In this document: piece after piece, positions 41,920-47,521 of the stretch
Layout of the letters: every line of letters starts with the position of its first letter
Position numbering within the stretch: the first letter of the stretch is position 1
From: Burkholderiaceae bacterium
GTDB lineage: Bacteria > Pseudomonadota > Gammaproteobacteria > Burkholderiales > Burkholderiaceae_C
NCBI GenBank assembly: GCA_019234815.1
Contig: JAFALA010000079.1
Coordinates: 1-64,000, forward strand
Direction of reading: 5' to 3'
Length of the DNA stretch: 64,000 nt
Program-made: the position numbers and the translations under genes
The notes under the pieces: model-generated
Databases searched by the model: none
Seen by the model: the letters and a program-made list of their open reading frames with translations, nothing else
What the model was told of the DNA's origin: nothing

Positions 41920-42738
41920 TCAGGATTTCAGTTGCAGCAGGCGTGAAATGGCTGCGGCGGTATGCAGCAGGCGCGGCAAAACCTCGCTGACCATGGCTTC
42001 CGGCGGCCGGCGGTTGACCTGCGTGCCGACATTCAGGGCGGCAATGGTGTGGCCGTGGCGGTCGATGATGGGGGCCGCCAGGGAGGCAAGACCCTCCTCC
42101 AGCTCCTGGTTGATCAGGCACCAGCCCTGGCTTCGTACCGCGTGGATGCGATGACGCAATTCATCCTTGGAGCGCACCGTGCGCGAAGTGAAGGGCACGA
42201 GCTGCAGGCGATGCAGCATGCGTTCCAGTTCGGCCTCGGATTGATCCGCCAGCAGGACGCGGCCCAAGGACGTGCACCAGGCCGGCAACCGGCTTCCCAC
42301 GCCGAGATTGATGCTCATGATCTTGCGCGCGGGGATACGCATCACGTACACCACGTCGGTGCCGTCGAGCACCGCGGCCGAGCAGCTTTCATTCAGTTCG
42401 GCGGCCAGGTCTTGCATCAGGGGTTCGGCCAGATGCCACAGCGGCTGTGACGACAGATAGGCGAATCCCAGGTCCAGAATGCGCGGGCTGAGCGTGAACA
42501 GCCGGCCTTCGCAGCGGACGTAGCCCAGCACCTCCAAGGTCAGCAGGATGCGGCGTGCGCCGGCACGAGTCAGGCCGCAATGCCGGGCGACTTCGGTCAA
42601 GGTCTGCTTGGGCGCCTGGGCGCTGAAAGCGCGGATCACTGCCAGGCCGCGAGCGAAGGACTGCACGTAGCTGTCGCCCGGCTTGGGGGGCGATGCTGGC
42701 GGCGTGGTCACTGCGTCTGAGGCCTGGGCTTCTTTCAT
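41920..42738 (-). CDS. IclR family transcriptional regulator (PcaR/PobR type)
   Basis: 272 aa. N-terminal winged HTH (about residues 25-85; LTEVARHCGLTRAGARRILLTLEVLGYV) and a C-terminal IclR effector domain (about 105-265) with SLGRVLLADQSEAELERML and the closing EEGLASLAAPIIDRHGHTIAALNV. This branch commonly controls aromatic catabolism (protocatechuate or 4-hydroxybenzoate). It could also act on the divergent 42.9 kb operon. Target not known. Confidence 0.88.
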   Translation of the reverse strand: MKEAQASDAVTTPPASPPKPGDSYVQSFARGLAVIRAFSAQAPKQTLTEVARHCGLTRAGARRILLTLEVLGYVRCEGRLFTLSPRILDLGFAYLSSQPLWHLAEPLMQDLAAELNESCSAAVLDGTDVVYVMRIPARKIMSINLGVGSRLPAWCTSLGRVLLADQSEAELERMLHRLQLVPFTSRTVRSKDELRHRIHAVRSQGWCLINQELEEGLASLAAPIIDRHGHTIAALNVGTQVNRRPPEAMVSEVLPRLLHTAAAISRLLQLKS

Positions 42739-42864: not shown

Positions 42865-43938
42865 ATGTCTTGTGAGAAGCGGCGGCTTTGGACCGTCTTT
42901 GTGCCCCTGGTTTTGCTGCTGAGCATCGCTCATCTCTCCATGGCGGGTGGACAACCCAACAAGCGCAGGACGAGCGAAGCCGTGGCGCCGACGCCGACCG
43001 GGAGCGCCGACGGCGCGCCGCATCCGATCTTCGTGTTGAACTCGCTGGAAGCCGATGTCAGCGTCATCGACCCGCAGACCTTCAAGGAGATCAAGCGCAT
43101 TGCGACCGGCAAGGAACCCCACCATCTCTATCTCACGCCGGACGACAAGTCCATGGTGGTGGCCAATGCCTTGAGCGACTCGCTGACTTTTCTGGATCCT
43201 GCTAGCGCGAATATTCAGCGCGTGGTGCAGGGCATCACCGACCCCTATCAACTGCGCTTTTCGCCAGACATGAAATGGTTTGTGACGGCGGGCAATCGGC
43301 TCGATCACGTGGCCCTGTACCGCTGGAGGCCGGAGGACGCCGCCCAGCCCTTCGAGCTCGTCAGGCGGATTCCGGCGCCCAGGACGCCGAGCCACCTCAA
43401 CATCGACAGCAAGAGCACGGTGGTGTATGCCAGCCTGCAGGACAGCGATGAACTGATGGCGATCGATCTGGCCACGCAGGTGCCGCGCTGGAAGATTCCT
43501 GTCGGCAAGACGCCGGCCGACGTGTTCCTGACGCCGGACGACAAGATCCTGCTGCTGGCCCTGACCGGAGACCGTTATGTCGAAGCGTACGACGTCAGCG
43601 GCGCCGCGCCCAGGCTGATCAAGCGGATCGCGACAGGCAGCGGCGCGCACTCGTTCCGTGCCCTGGGTGACCACCGCCATGTGCTGGTGAGCAACCGCGC
43701 GGCCAACAGCATCAGCGTGATCGACACGCTCAATCTGGCGGTCGATCTGACCTTTCCCGCTCCCGGTGGCCCGGACGACATGGAAGTCCTGCCGGACGGC
43801 AGGACCTTGCTCGTCACCTCGCGCTGGGCGCGCAAGCTGACTTTGATCGACTTGCGGACGCATCAGGTCGTCAAGCAGGTCACCGTCGGCAAGTCGCCGC
43901 ACGGCGTCTGGACGCTCGACCACGTGCCAAGGCTGTGA
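42865..43938 (+). CDS. YVTN/40-repeat beta-propeller protein, exported
   Basis: 357 aa, ATG at 42865 eight bases after GAGG. Hydrophobic N-terminal segment FVPLVLLLSIAHLSMA suggests export. Six or seven YVTN-type blades: repeated hydrophobic strands with TPDDKSMVVANALSDSLTFLD, TPDDKILLLALTGDRYVEAYD, LGDHRHVLVSNRAANSISVID. Propellers of this class bind ligands or partners, or act as lactonases; no catalytic site is evident. The stop overlaps the deacetylase start by one base (TGATG), making a three-gene coupled unit. Confidence 0.82.
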   Translation: MSCEKRRLWTVFVPLVLLLSIAHLSMAGGQPNKRRTSEAVAPTPTGSADGAPHPIFVLNSLEADVSVIDPQTFKEIKRIATGKEPHHLYLTPDDKSMVVANALSDSLTFLDPASANIQRVVQGITDPYQLRFSPDMKWFVTAGNRLDHVALYRWRPEDAAQPFELVRRIPAPRTPSHLNIDSKSTVVYASLQDSDELMAIDLATQVPRWKIPVGKTPADVFLTPDDKILLLALTGDRYVEAYDVSGAAPRLIKRIATGSGAHSFRALGDHRHVLVSNRAANSISVIDTLNLAVDLTFPAPGGPDDMEVLPDGRTLLVTSRWARKLTLIDLRTHQVVKQVTVGKSPHGVWTLDHVPRL

Positions 43939-44786
43939 TGAGCTGGCAATGCAGGGCTCGGGCGGGCGCCCGAAGGGTGTACGGATTTGGCATGTTCTCG
44001 TTGGCGCTGATGATGGCCGGCGTCAGCGGCCTGGCCCAGGCCGCCAGTTGTGGCGACAAGCCGGTGTTCCTGAGTTTTGACACGGGCCACATGGGCGTGG
44101 CGCCGCTGGTGGCCGAAACCCTCAGGCGCTACGACGCCAAGGTCACGTTCTTTCTGGCCAACGAGCCCACACTGACCGGCGGAGCTACGCTGGACGAGCA
44201 GTGGGCGCCCTGGTGGCGTGCGCGCGTGGCCGAAGGGCACGATTTCGGCTCCCACACCTGGGACCACGACATCTGGATGGCCGATCTGCCCACGGGCAAT
44301 TTCAAGATGAAGCGCATGGCGGGCAAGGCCAAGCCGGTGCTGCACGAGATGACGCCCCGGCAGTATTGCGAAGATCTGCGCAAGCCGGCGCAGCGCTTTC
44401 GCGAGATGACGGGCCAGGCCATGGCGCCCCTGTTCAGGGCACCCAGCGGCAAGACCTCCGAGGCCTTGATCGCGGCTGCCAAGGCCTGCGGCTTTACCCA
44501 TGTGGGCTGGAGCGCCGCCGGGTATCTCGGCGATGACCTGCCTGACAAGGCCGCGTCCAACGAGGTCCTGCTGCAGCGCGCGCTGCGCGATATCCGGCCT
44601 GGCGACGTGCTCATCGCGCATCTGGGCATTTGGTCGCGCCAGCAGGCCTGGGCGCCCGAGGTACTGGATCCGCTGATGCGAGGGTTGAAGGCCAAAGGCA
44701 TGTGCTTTGCACCCTTGCGTGAACACCCGGTCTACGGCCCCTTGGTCAGGGGTGCGGCGCCTGCGCACCCGGCGAGCGCATCCTGA
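43938..44786 (+). CDS. Polysaccharide deacetylase (NodB fold), exported
   Basis: 282 aa from ATG at 43938. Signal segment FSLALMMAGVSGLAQA. NodB metal motif: Asp in FDTGHMG and His pair in GSHTWDHDI, with FRAPSGKTSEAL and DVLIAHLGIW as later motifs. Family members remove N-acetyl groups from chitin, peptidoglycan or exopolysaccharide in the periplasm or outside. It shares one base with the next gene (TGATG), so the products are probably made in fixed ratio. Confidence 0.85.
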   Translation: MSWQCRARAGARRVYGFGMFSLALMMAGVSGLAQAASCGDKPVFLSFDTGHMGVAPLVAETLRRYDAKVTFFLANEPTLTGGATLDEQWAPWWRARVAEGHDFGSHTWDHDIWMADLPTGNFKMKRMAGKAKPVLHEMTPRQYCEDLRKPAQRFREMTGQAMAPLFRAPSGKTSEALIAAAKACGFTHVGWSAAGYLGDDLPDKAASNEVLLQRALRDIRPGDVLIAHLGIWSRQQAWAPEVLDPLMRGLKAKGMCFAPLREHPVYGPLVRGAAPAHPASAS

Positions 44787-45769
44787 TGGACGCATTGAGG
44801 GACGCATTGAGCGAGGCTTTTGCCTTGGCGCAGCAATGGCTGTTCGAAACGCTGGTGCAGCCGCTGGTGTTCGGTGCGGGCCTGGGCGGTCGTCTGGAAG
44901 AGGCCTTCGATGCCACCGGCTGGCTCCTGATCGGGCTGATCCAGGTGCTGATCATCGTCATATTCATTGGCGCGCTGGAGCGTTGGCGGCCGGTCGAGCC
45001 CGTGCAGGACCGGCAGGCCGTCCGGGTGGACGTGATCTACACGCTGATTCACCAACTGGGCCTGGTGCGCGTGCTGATGTTCTTTGCGCTGGACCCGACG
45101 CTGGACGCCGTCTCGGGCCAGATGCGCCTGGCGGGCCTGCCCACCTTCCAGTTGGATGCCGTCTGGCCTGGCGTCAGCGACCAGCCCTGGGTCAGTTTTG
45201 GCCTGTATCTCGCCGTCTTTGATTTCATCGGCTACGGGCTGCATCGGGCCCAGCACCATTTCAGTTGGTGGTGGGCCCTGCACGCGTTGCATCACAGCCA
45301 GCGCCAGATGACCAAGTGGAGCGACAACCGCAATCACTTGCTGGACGACGTGTTGCTGGCCGCCGCGTTTGCGTTGCTCGCACGATTGATCGGCGTCGGG
45401 CCGCAGCAGTTCGTGGCGCTCGTGGCCCTGCAGCAACTGGTTCAGAATCTTCAGCATGCCAATGCGCGCATCTGGTTCGGCCGCGTGTTCGAGCGGGTGT
45501 TGGTCAGCCCGCGATTCCATCGCCGGCACCACGCCATGGGGACGGGGCACGAGTCCACGGGCAAGGGCAGCTTGGGCGGGCACAATTTCGCGGTACTGTT
45601 CCCGGTCTGGGACATTGTGTTCGGTACCGCCGATTGGCGGCCCCGGTACGACGCCACCGGGATTCGCGATCAACTGCCGCAAGAGGGCGCACGCGATTAC
45701 GGACGCGGTTTCTGGCGCCAGCAATGGCTGGGCCTGCAGCGATTGGTTGGCGGTTTGATGGGGCAATGA
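44786..45769 (+). CDS. Sterol desaturase / fatty acid hydroxylase superfamily membrane protein
   Basis: 327 aa, ATG at 44786 overlapping the deacetylase stop. Four to five membrane spans. Di-iron histidine boxes are complete: HRAQH, HALHHS, and HRRHH with a later GGHN. These enzymes use O2 to hydroxylate or desaturate lipid chains in the membrane. Together with a deacetylase and a propeller the context suggests modification of a surface lipid or glycolipid; not known from the sequence. Confidence 0.85.
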   Translation: MDALRDALSEAFALAQQWLFETLVQPLVFGAGLGGRLEEAFDATGWLLIGLIQVLIIVIFIGALERWRPVEPVQDRQAVRVDVIYTLIHQLGLVRVLMFFALDPTLDAVSGQMRLAGLPTFQLDAVWPGVSDQPWVSFGLYLAVFDFIGYGLHRAQHHFSWWWALHALHHSQRQMTKWSDNRNHLLDDVLLAAAFALLARLIGVGPQQFVALVALQQLVQNLQHANARIWFGRVFERVLVSPRFHRRHHAMGTGHESTGKGSLGGHNFAVLFPVWDIVFGTADWRPRYDATGIRDQLPQEGARDYGRGFWRQQWLGLQRLVGGLMGQ

Positions 45770-45800: not shown

Positions 45801-46730
45801 ATGAGCAAATCCCTGGGCCGGATCATCAACGCGTTCTGGCGTGCCGCGGCGTATTGCCTGCATCCGCGCGTGATCATGCTGTCGCTGCTGCCCTTGCTGC
45901 TGCTGGGCGGCCTGGCCGGCGTGTTCATGTATTTTTTCTGGGAGTCGGCGGTGTCGGGCGTGCGCGGCACGCTGGAAAGCTGGCAGCTCATCAGCGCCTT
46001 GCTGGATTGGCTCGACAGGCTGGGCGCCAGCGGCTTTCGGACCGTGCTGGCGCCGCTGCTGGTGCTGGCCATCGGCACGCCGATTGTGGTGGTGCTGAGC
46101 CTGCTGCTGGTGGCCCTGCTGATGACGCCGCAGATGGCGCGGCTGGTTGCGCTGCGCCGCTACCCGACGCTGGAGCGCAAGCATGGCGCGAGCTGGTGGG
46201 GCAGCCTGGCTTGGTCGCTCGCGCACGGGGTCGTCGCCTTGTTCCTGCTGCTGATCAGCATGCCGCTGTGGCTGATCCCGCCGCTCGTGCTGTTCGTGCC
46301 GCCGCTGATCTGGGCGTGGCTGGGCTATCGCGTGTTTGCCTATGACGTGCTGGCGGGCTTTGCCTCGGTGGAGGAGCGGCGCCACATCATGCAGGCCAAC
46401 AAGCTTCCGCTGTTCTTCCTGGGGCTGATCACCGGCTACCTGGGCGCGGCGCCGGCCGCCATCTGGGCCTTTGGTGCGCTGTCGGTGATCTTCGCGCCTT
46501 TCCTGGTGCTGGTTTCAGTCTGGCTCTACACCCTGGTGTTCGCGTTCGCGGCGCTGTGGTTCGCGCACTTCTGCTTCCAGGCCCTTTGGGAATTGCGCCA
46601 GCAGCCTGCGCCGGCTGCGTCCATCCTGGATCTTGGCGCCGGACCCGGCCACGCCGCGCGGCCGATCGATGCCCTCGAGCTCGACGATCCGCCCGCGCCA
46701 TCGCGCTTTGTGGAGCAGGACCTGCCATGA
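45801..46730 (+). CDS. EI24 domain membrane protein
   Basis: 309 aa, GAGGAG upstream. Six-span EI24/CysZ-like architecture, with ALLMTPQMARLVALRRYP and LPLFFLGLITGYLGAAPA. E. coli CysZ is a sulfate channel; this branch is of unknown role. The stop overlaps the CinA-like start by four bases. It follows the hydroxylase gene by 31 bases, so it may be part of the same transcript. Confidence 0.8.
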   Translation: MSKSLGRIINAFWRAAAYCLHPRVIMLSLLPLLLLGGLAGVFMYFFWESAVSGVRGTLESWQLISALLDWLDRLGASGFRTVLAPLLVLAIGTPIVVVLSLLLVALLMTPQMARLVALRRYPTLERKHGASWWGSLAWSLAHGVVALFLLLISMPLWLIPPLVLFVPPLIWAWLGYRVFAYDVLAGFASVEERRHIMQANKLPLFFLGLITGYLGAAPAAIWAFGALSVIFAPFLVLVSVWLYTLVFAFAALWFAHFCFQALWELRQQPAPAASILDLGAGPGHAARPIDALELDDPPAPSRFVEQDLP

Positions 46731-47521
46731 AGGTCGGACTCATCATCATCGGCGACGAGATCCTGTCTGGCAAACGCCAGGACCGGCACCTCAGCAAGTG
46801 CATCGAATTGCTGGCCGAGCGCGGCATGAGCCTGAGTTGGGCGCATTACCTCGGCGACGACCGCGAGCAGATCACCGTCGAGCTGCGCCGGGCCTTTGCC
46901 AGCGGCGATCTGGTGTTCAGCTGCGGCGGCATTGGCGCCACGCCGGACGACCATACCCGCCAGGCCGCCGCTGCGGCGCTGGATCAGCCGCTGGCGCTGC
47001 ACGCGCAGGCCAGGGCGCTGATCTGGCAGCGCGTCTGCGAGACGGCGCAGGACACGGGCGTGCAGCCCGACCCCGAGCACCCCGACACCTTGCGCCGCTT
47101 CGAGATGGGCATGTTCCCGGCGGCTGCCGACATCATCCCCAACCCCTACAACAAGATCCCGGGCTTCTTTGTCGGCCACGTGCATTTCGTGCCCGGCTTT
47201 CCCGTCATGGCCCATCCGATGATGGCCTGGGTGCTCGACACGCGCTATGCGGCGCTGCACAGCACCGTGCGGCGGCGCGAGCGCTCCCTGATCGTGCAGG
47301 GTGCCATGGAAGCCAGCCTCACGCCCTTGATGGAGCAGATCGAGCGCAGATTTCCCGGCATCAAGGTGTTCAGCCTGCCTAGCGTCGATCACCCTCAGTG
47401 GGGCCGGCACATCGAGCTCGGCGTCAAGGGTGACGACGCTACGCTCGACGCGGCCTACGCCGAACTCAAGACGGGGCTTTCCCAATTTGGTGCGTACATA
47501 AGCACAGAATTGGTGCGTTAA
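46727..47521 (+). CDS. CinA N-terminal / molybdopterin-binding domain protein
   Basis: 264 aa. MoCF-type fold: LIIIGDEILSGKRQDRHL at the start and FSCGGIGATPDDHTRQAAAAAL as the nucleotide-binding motif. It is the N-terminal half of CinA without the C-terminal deamidase domain. Such stand-alone proteins bind or hydrolyse nucleotides; exact role unknown. Its last codons carry the NtrC-type site that serves the glnA promoter downstream. Confidence 0.83.
   Translation: MKVGLIIIGDEILSGKRQDRHLSKCIELLAERGMSLSWAHYLGDDREQITVELRRAFASGDLVFSCGGIGATPDDHTRQAAAAALDQPLALHAQARALIWQRVCETAQDTGVQPDPEHPDTLRRFEMGMFPAAADIIPNPYNKIPGFFVGHVHFVPGFPVMAHPMMAWVLDTRYAALHSTVRRRERSLIVQGAMEASLTPLMEQIERRFPGIKVFSLPSVDHPQWGRHIELGVKGDDATLDAAYAELKTGLSQFGAYISTELVR
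47502..47516. promoter_or_regulatory. NtrC-binding site (enhancer) upstream of glnA
   Basis: GCACAGAATTGGTGC matches the NtrC dyad GCAC-N5-TGGTGC exactly. It lies inside the last codons of the CinA-like gene, about 185 bases upstream of the -24 element. A nearby half-site TTGGTGCG at 47487-47494 may make it a tandem. Confidence 0.65.

Follow-up and report, generated by a model that had tools for sequence, protein, structure and literature searches.

A co-inherited propeller, deacetylase and hydroxylase gene trio of Burkholderiales with a possible role in cell-envelope modification

What do an exported beta-propeller, a polysaccharide deacetylase-like protein and a membrane hydroxylase have in common that their genes should overlap? 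This question is raised by three consecutive genes in a stretch of 64,000 nucleotides (hereafter the window) from contig JAFALA010000079.1 of a Burkholderiaceae bacterium (assembly GCA_019234815.1), whose products we call PROP, NODB and FAH. The stop codon of each of the first two genes shares one base with the next start codon, as TGATG at 43936-43940 (PROP/NODB) and 44784-44788 (NODB/FAH), and both the gene positions and the overlaps are those given in an earlier note on this DNA. The three genes are:

42865..43938, + strand: PROP, predicted exported seven-bladed YNCE-type beta-propeller, 357 amino acids (PF21783, 443.2 bits; AF2 model; conservation by face)
43938..44786, + strand: NODB, predicted exported CE4/NodB-domain deacetylase, 282 amino acids (PF01522, 69.5 bits; PdaA-type solved relatives; invariant columns)
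44786..45769, + strand: FAH, predicted integral-membrane di-iron hydroxylase of the fatty acid hydroxylase superfamily, 327 amino acids (PF04116, 94.8 bits; invariant His; AF2 model)

All three scores exceed the Pfam cut-offs (27.1, 23.1 and 31 bits, respectively), and the predicted family assignment of the three products is secure. The earlier note had taken two of them for exported proteins and the third for a di-iron membrane enzyme of the fatty acid hydroxylase family; the signal-like N-termini of PROP and NODB as well as the PF04116 score and the conserved His boxes of FAH point the same way. Besides NODB, the genome contains one other protein with a NodB-domain match. The answer that we develop below, and to which we give an even chance of being right, is that the trio is one inherited cassette modifying a component of the cell envelope, in which a metallo- or cofactor enzyme (PROP) and a lipid hydroxylase (FAH) are joined by a PdaA/MdaA-like deacetylase.

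One check proposed in the earlier note was a search for conserved neighbourhoods, the lack of which would have refuted its proposal; the trio proved to be kept together in relatives. We surveyed one genome for each genus of the family, 60 in all and including the genome of the window, with orthologue thresholds of E < 1e-70 for PROP, < 1e-95 for FAH and < 1e-50 for NODB, ignoring weak paralogues. PROP and FAH occurred in the same 43 of the 60 genomes, NODB in 41 of these 43, and all three were missing from the other 17; in the two genomes without NODB (G048 and G065), PROP adjoins FAH. The order PROP-NODB-FAH was found in 41 of 43 fetched loci (40 from this family, 3 from other families). Two family genomes whose loci were not fetched have, by their coordinates, a trio (G008) and a trio split by a contig end inside NODB (G009). 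When the best 80 of 579 loci in named records were scanned, 79 had all three genes in order and the remaining one ends at a contig edge just after PROP. At the level of the order, the NODB subfamily was detected in 61 of 300 genomes from 14 families, and the full trio was present in 59 of these 61 (30 of 30 first loci and 29 of 31 fetched later); of the two others, one locus (L276) breaks off where its contig stops and the other (L267) has no adjacent FAH. The trio-bearing genomes of the order include ones of 1.5-2.1 Mb.

Further away, the genes become rare. PROP, at E 1e-30 or better, was found in 5 of 229 genomes sampled from the class, namely in two of the same family, in one with a PROP-FAH duo and in two with generic YVTN proteins. 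FAH, at E 1e-45, was found in 18 of 349 genomes sampled from the phylum, and the two of these outside the order (G778 and G894) have no propeller alongside. A complete trio is carried on a plasmid of Pseudoroseomonas cervicalis (Acetobacteraceae, alphaproteobacterial), and PROP-FAH duos are present on one Paraburkholderia and one Caballeronia plasmid. The shared gene order far exceeds what is expected by chance. We found no description of this gene combination in the open-access literature searched.

Conservation of gene order could also be neutral, if the trio simply sat in a housekeeping region that rearranges slowly (EI24-MoCF-glnA-ntrBC), and in many genomes a trio or duo does precede EI24-MoCF-glnA. 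In the window, the neighbouring genes are:

45801..46730, + strand: EI24/CysZ-like membrane protein, outside the conserved unit (PF07264, 96.4 bits)
46727..47521, + strand: MoCF/CinA-N domain protein, outside the conserved unit (PF00994, 87.2 bits)
41920..42738, - strand: IclR-type regulator (PcaR/PcaU/PobR family), divergent from the trio (TIGR02431, 330.3 bits, cut-off 284.75)

Against neutral conservation, the inspected loci of Achromobacter, Bordetella, Pigmentiphaga, Limnohabitans and Rhizobacter have the trio next to other chromosomal neighbours, the trio is retained on the plasmid of another class, and all three genes are jointly absent from 17 of 60 genera that retain MoCF. We thus regard this explanation as largely refuted and its chances as close to nil; simple descent of a stable region was rejected as the sole explanation, given the varied chromosomal settings and the plasmid trio.

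The same comparison delimits the unit. The CinA-like gene, which the earlier note had described as closely following the trio, turned out to be independent of it, as MoCF is present in 59 of the 60 family genomes, among them the 17 that lack the trio; the single genome without it (G008) is 65% complete. Of the named loci, 66 extend 4.5 kb or more downstream of the trio, and EI24 is found there in 50 of them and MoCF in 51. EI24, which was not searched separately, was rejected as a member, since 16 of these 66 loci lack it next to the trio and the neighbours differ elsewhere. The IclR-type regulator is not conserved beside the trio either (5 of 43 fetched loci, anywhere in the stretch, and 9 of 80 named loci). 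Because MoCF is independent, EI24 is not always adjacent and the trio is found in other settings, the conserved unit consists of the three genes, and its core of PROP and FAH. A few loci have other genes nearby, which were named by eye: a second, ArnD-like NodB-type gene some 3 kb away from the trio of G033 (L139, 13324-14040, - strand), an exosortase-like pair divergent from a PROP-NODB pair without FAH (L321, 4938-6163), and a FabA-like gene near the trio in two Pigmentiphaga loci, on opposite sides (L186, 8761-9276; L199, 4114-4635).

The coupling of the genes claimed in the earlier note extends to relatives, where the genes overlap or nearly touch; the one-base overlap is present in the window and its exact form is not conserved. 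In 120 loci, with some genomes counted twice and start codons picked by a heuristic, PROP and NODB overlap in 95 (by exactly one base in 5), are separated by 0-30 nucleotides in 13 and by more in 12. The corresponding numbers for NODB and FAH are 38, 60 and 18, with uncertain ends in 4. In Piscinibacter sakaiensis (L106/L155), an additional open reading frame (L106, 9603-10598, oriented) separates NODB from FAH, and in two Roseateles loci (L168 and L175) FAH and EI24 are 2.6 and 1.2 kb apart.

Is the deacetylase needed for whatever the other two proteins do? In a related family (f198), a propeller was found in 89 of 120 genomes. We compared 50 loci, comprising those selected for fetching in this family and those already in hand. 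Half of them (25) are in the ancestral position before EI24-MoCF-glnA, two of these being trios, and the other 25 lie elsewhere, none of them with NODB. In a FastTree tree, most NodB-less copies group in one clade, which is consistent with a single loss of NODB, and a divergent group of five is set apart. In 9 of the 50 loci, the propeller has no hydroxylase that we could find nearby; one of these (L394) lies inside an apparent copper/heavy-metal resistance island and another (L400) beside a cytochrome c gene, in both cases with neighbours named by eye. In three loci (L381, L383 and L385), the propeller precedes EI24-MoCF with no hydroxylase found there, and the same genomes hold a second propeller-hydroxylase pair elsewhere. 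Since NODB can be absent while PROP and FAH persist, one linear glycolipid pathway using all three products is not required.

We then asked what kind of protein PROP is. The AlphaFold2 (AF2) model (predicted local distance difference test, pLDDT, 88.9) has, judged from its listed strands, seven blades of four strands each, with the N-terminal strands closing the propeller, and the conservation among 238 non-identical propellers, taken from loci with a trio, a duo or a propeller alone, was mapped on the strand map. At least 97% conservation was reached by 15 of the 59 positions in top-face loops versus 1 of the 69 in bottom-face loops. Polar residues were sought in the loops and among the three residues at either end of each inner strand. 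Twelve near-invariant ones were found, all on the top side and sited at the mouth of the channel: H86, H87, D126, Y128, R145, H177, Q192, H262, R278, D304, R320 and H346, i.e. five His, three Arg, two Asp, one Tyr and one Gln. Among the positions examined, the bottom face had no charged or polar near-invariant residue; N277, Y152 and D329, inside other strands, are equally conserved. The first residues of the inner strands form a ring HH-Y-H-(D/G)-H-D-H, in which H87, Y128, H177, H262, D304 and H346 are retained in 235-237 of the 238 propellers and H86 in 231 (with Ser in five duo copies), residue 219 being Asp in 118 and Gly in 119. This ring is absent from a remote YVTN control (L224); another YVTN protein (L225) has its own Pro-His repeats, which aligned out of register, and is not a clean control. 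In the predicted structure, the top face of PROP is thus an enzyme- or cofactor-like site.

A twin-arginine signal, by a loose pattern, was seen in only 17 of 118 PROP N-termini, and four further sequences lacked the anchor motif. In a divergent propeller branch (L294, L410, L414 and L416), two members of which have H86 replaced by Ser (L294 and L416), the twin-arginine signals (SRRxxL) are clear, which suggests that these propellers may be exported in folded form.

These data bear on the role of a docking partner that the earlier note had assigned to the propeller. As a scaffold, PROP would hold the deacetylase and the hydroxylase on a lipid-linked glycan; propellers often mediate interactions, PROP and NODB both begin with a signal-like stretch, and the two genes are overlapping or almost contiguous. 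Such a scaffold does not account well for an invariant His/Arg/Asp site that resembles an active site and is confined to one face, nor for propellers that occur with FAH in the absence of NODB and, in some loci, without either, the hydroxylase being missing nearby in the 9 of 50 loci mentioned above. We therefore set the docking role aside as improbable and retain the reading of PROP as an enzyme or cofactor-binding protein.

Known propellers leave several choices for such a site. In comparisons by VIA-align, which covered the folds among the matches listed, the neighbours of PROP were a YVTN surface protein (Z 37.1), the lactonases 6nau (34.6) and PpgL 6igb (33.3), muconate lactonizing enzyme 1jof (32.2), NosZ (31.7; root mean square deviation, rmsd, 2.6, 298 residues aligned), thiocyanate dehydrogenase (30.3; rmsd 2.9, 301 aligned) and the corrinoid binder BtuG2 8bai (30.3), and Foldseek found similarity to the heme d1 proteins NirN and NirF. 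With Z-scores so similar across many kinds of propeller, the fold alone points to no single function. PROP shares the seven blades, the export and PF21783 with the YncE/YVTN-lactonase propellers (E. coli YncE, PpgL, 6-phosphogluconolactonase), but differs from them in having its own His/Arg/Asp ring and in adjoining FAH in the family surveyed, and it scores far below the cut-off of the YncE equivalog NF052280 (39.4 versus 400 bits). PROP might nevertheless be a lactonase- or isomerase-type enzyme, or a binder of tetrapyrroles or corrinoids, with no bare metal and with the Arg residues holding an anionic substrate or propionates. The high structural likeness to the lactonases, 1jof and BtuG2 and the Foldseek matches to NirN/NirF speak for this possibility, which we consider unlikely and yet a serious contender, since the His residues at the inner-strand starts of four blades and the metal-transporter linkage of some copies would suit a metal site at least equally well.

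A metal in PROP is plausible by analogy with two other seven-bladed propellers, NosZ and thiocyanate dehydrogenase, with which it shares His residues at inner-strand starts and structural Z-scores of 30-32. The blade-level profile match to NosZ, weak as it is (probability 27%), sets P85-H86 on a Pro-His conserved in 7 of the 8 NosZ proteins compared, the spacing of which would be about that of a CuZ ligand, judged against His mutants in PDB titles. NosZ holds its CuZ centre at the corresponding channel position, liganded by seven His, and carries an additional cupredoxin (CuA) domain. The ring of PROP, in contrast, is not one of seven His, no cupredoxin family was among the Pfam matches of its 357 residues, and its score against L-NosZ NF052460 (89 bits) is far below the cut-off of 700. 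In thiocyanate dehydrogenase, the central tunnel of the propeller is occupied by three copper ions (PMC9456337).

The genomic neighbourhood of some NodB-less copies also points to metals. A gene for MntH (7 loci) and/or a cation diffusion facilitator (CDF) exporter (3 loci) was present in the fetched stretch of 9 of the 25 non-ancestral copies versus none of the 25 ancestral ones. As the metal idea came from L136, L137, L292, L294 and L326 before this survey, and three of these supplied query proteins, the loci obtained later (L381-L420), for which mostly two-copy genomes had been selected, were counted separately: MntH was near 5 of 18 non-ancestral versus 0 of 22 ancestral copies (Fisher p 0.013, ignoring relatedness). 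The metal-linked copies stand in only four or five places of the FastTree tree, and the effective sample is therefore small. In all, NodB-less copies near MntH (NRAMP), CDF or heavy-metal genes were noted at L136, L137, L292 (heavy-metal two-component genes), L294, L326, L392, L394, L403, L407 and L416.

With regard to the deacetylase, the best solved relatives of NODB are PdaA-type enzymes. D48, H106, H110, R167, W191 and H228 are invariant in alignments of 23 and 32 sequences, and so is Thr49, which takes the place of the second Asp of the DD motif, the canonical metal Asp. D48 aligns with the first motif Asp of 2j13, which itself has Asn at the metal-Asp position. NODB thus has the CE4 features of a PF01522 score above cut-off, the catalytic base Asp and the two metal His, and lacks the canonical metal Asp; against the PdaA model TIGR02884 it reaches 55.2 bits, the cut-off being 298. 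Two characterised relatives are instructive. MdaA of Agrobacterium has Cys for the canonical metal Asp and yet is active, deacetylating anhydro-N-acetylmuramic acid (anhydroMurNAc) (PMC10838918), and SwsB lost the base Asp and turned into a cyclase (PMC12444981). NODB resembles PdaA, MdaA and SwsB in its NodB fold and MdaA in its atypical metal-Asp residue, and differs from SwsB in keeping the base Asp, for which reason a deacetylase is the better guess than a cyclase. Its Thr sets it apart from both 2j13 (Asn) and MdaA (Cys), and it differs from PdaA, MdaA and SwsB in being encoded with a propeller and a hydroxylase.

The precedents open another explanation, namely that NODB deacetylates MurNAc or anhydroMurNAc of peptidoglycan and that PROP and FAH serve a separate envelope process under shared regulation. 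The PdaA-type relatives, the described activity of MdaA and the lack of NODB in the duo branch would all fit. All 41 family genomes with NODB have PROP and FAH as well, an association tighter than the co-regulation of unrelated functions needs, and we judge this explanation to be unlikely, if worth keeping in view, and continue with a single cassette.

The hydroxylase has the His boxes H153xxxH157, H166xxHH170, H184, H224 and H245xxHH249, and the box His are invariant in 27 and 33 sequences. Its AF2 model has a pLDDT of 90.2. In 27 sequences, the mean number of Lys plus Arg per segment is 2.7, 2.1 and 13.1 on the side of the His boxes, the last value being that of a 104-residue tail, and 0.1, 0.2 and 0.0 on the other side; by the positive-inside rule, we infer from this excess that the di-iron site probably lies at the cytoplasmic face. 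A separate FAH subfamily (L311, L312, L315-L320), 37-44% identical to the nearest trio or duo FAH, has no propeller adjacent, and its copy at L319 adjoins TonB-receptor-like and PepSY-like genes (named by eye).

FAH shares the PF04116 di-iron His-box architecture with Scs7/FA2H and with OlsE, which hydroxylates the ornithine moiety of ornithine lipids (PMC3972451). FAH could then be an ornithine-lipid hydroxylase and the cassette a means of tailoring these lipids. OlsE is the sole NCBIfam match of FAH (NF052566, 62.7 bits), but the cut-off of this model is 475 bits. In 79 genomes hand-picked from those already seen, a strong match to PF13444 (OlsB-type, E < 1e-10) was found in 60 of 65 with a trio or duo versus 10 of 14 without (Fisher p 0.047; with matches of any strength, 0.10). 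PF13444 is unmatched in four trio genomes (G016, G045, G335 and G416), and most trio-less genomes do have a match. Ornithine-lipid synthesis was therefore rejected as a clear predictor of the trio, the association being weak at most, and a role of FAH in these lipids is in our view quite doubtful.

What, then, would the cassette do? We draw the following picture from the gene order, close spacing and co-occurrence, the plasmid copy in another class and the retained family residues. PROP would be a periplasmic enzyme or a cofactor- or metal-binding redox protein that works through the His/Arg/Asp residues where the central channel opens. FAH, a di-iron hydroxylase of the inner membrane, would oxidise a lipid, probably on its cytoplasmic side. 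NODB, made along with them in most lineages, would act in the periplasm as an N-deacetylase with a PdaA/MdaA-like active site and strip an acyl group from an amino-sugar. The products would act on the same or on linked substrates, a lipid-linked glycan and peptidoglycan being among the candidates. A bolder version, which we put forward as rather unlikely, makes PROP the first of a new kind of periplasmic metallo-propeller oxidoreductases, with a metal site in the channel like that of NosZ or thiocyanate dehydrogenase, working in series with FAH to oxidise an envelope lipid whose amino-sugar is uncovered by NODB; this would be an undescribed route of lipid oxidation, common in Burkholderiales and tied to metal homeostasis.

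Several points weigh against this picture and its bolder version. The geometry of the PROP ring was deduced from the strand order and not from distances measured in the model coordinates, and a conserved pocket by itself proves neither catalysis nor metal binding. Other kinds of propeller score like NosZ (mLST8 WD40, Z 32.1; a designed propeller, 31.2), and the hhalign profile match to eight NosZ proteins is weak, with probabilities of 33% over the whole length and 27% at blade level, on which grounds homology to NosZ by profile alignment was rejected. Linkage to metal transporters was seen in 0 of 157 further loci, nearly all of them trios, the sole matches there being the duos L136 and L137, so that it may be limited to the NodB-less branch. 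For FAH, the only plausible structural match among those listed, the hydroxylase domain of Scs7p, has a Z-score of 6.0 (rmsd 4.6, 173 aligned), which is weak for a helical protein, and Foldseek gave no significant match. Finally, one genome (G482, with locus L267) has PROP-NODB without FAH beside it.

Its preservation, intact, in 14 families of one order and down to genomes of 1.5-2 Mb indicates that the cassette does something useful, for which the literature searched has no name. Should PROP be a metalloenzyme, the chemistry of envelope lipids or glycans would gain a periplasmic step that is oxidative or depends on a metal. The twelve near-invariant residues on one face of PROP are a clear target, which makes the function of the propeller directly testable.

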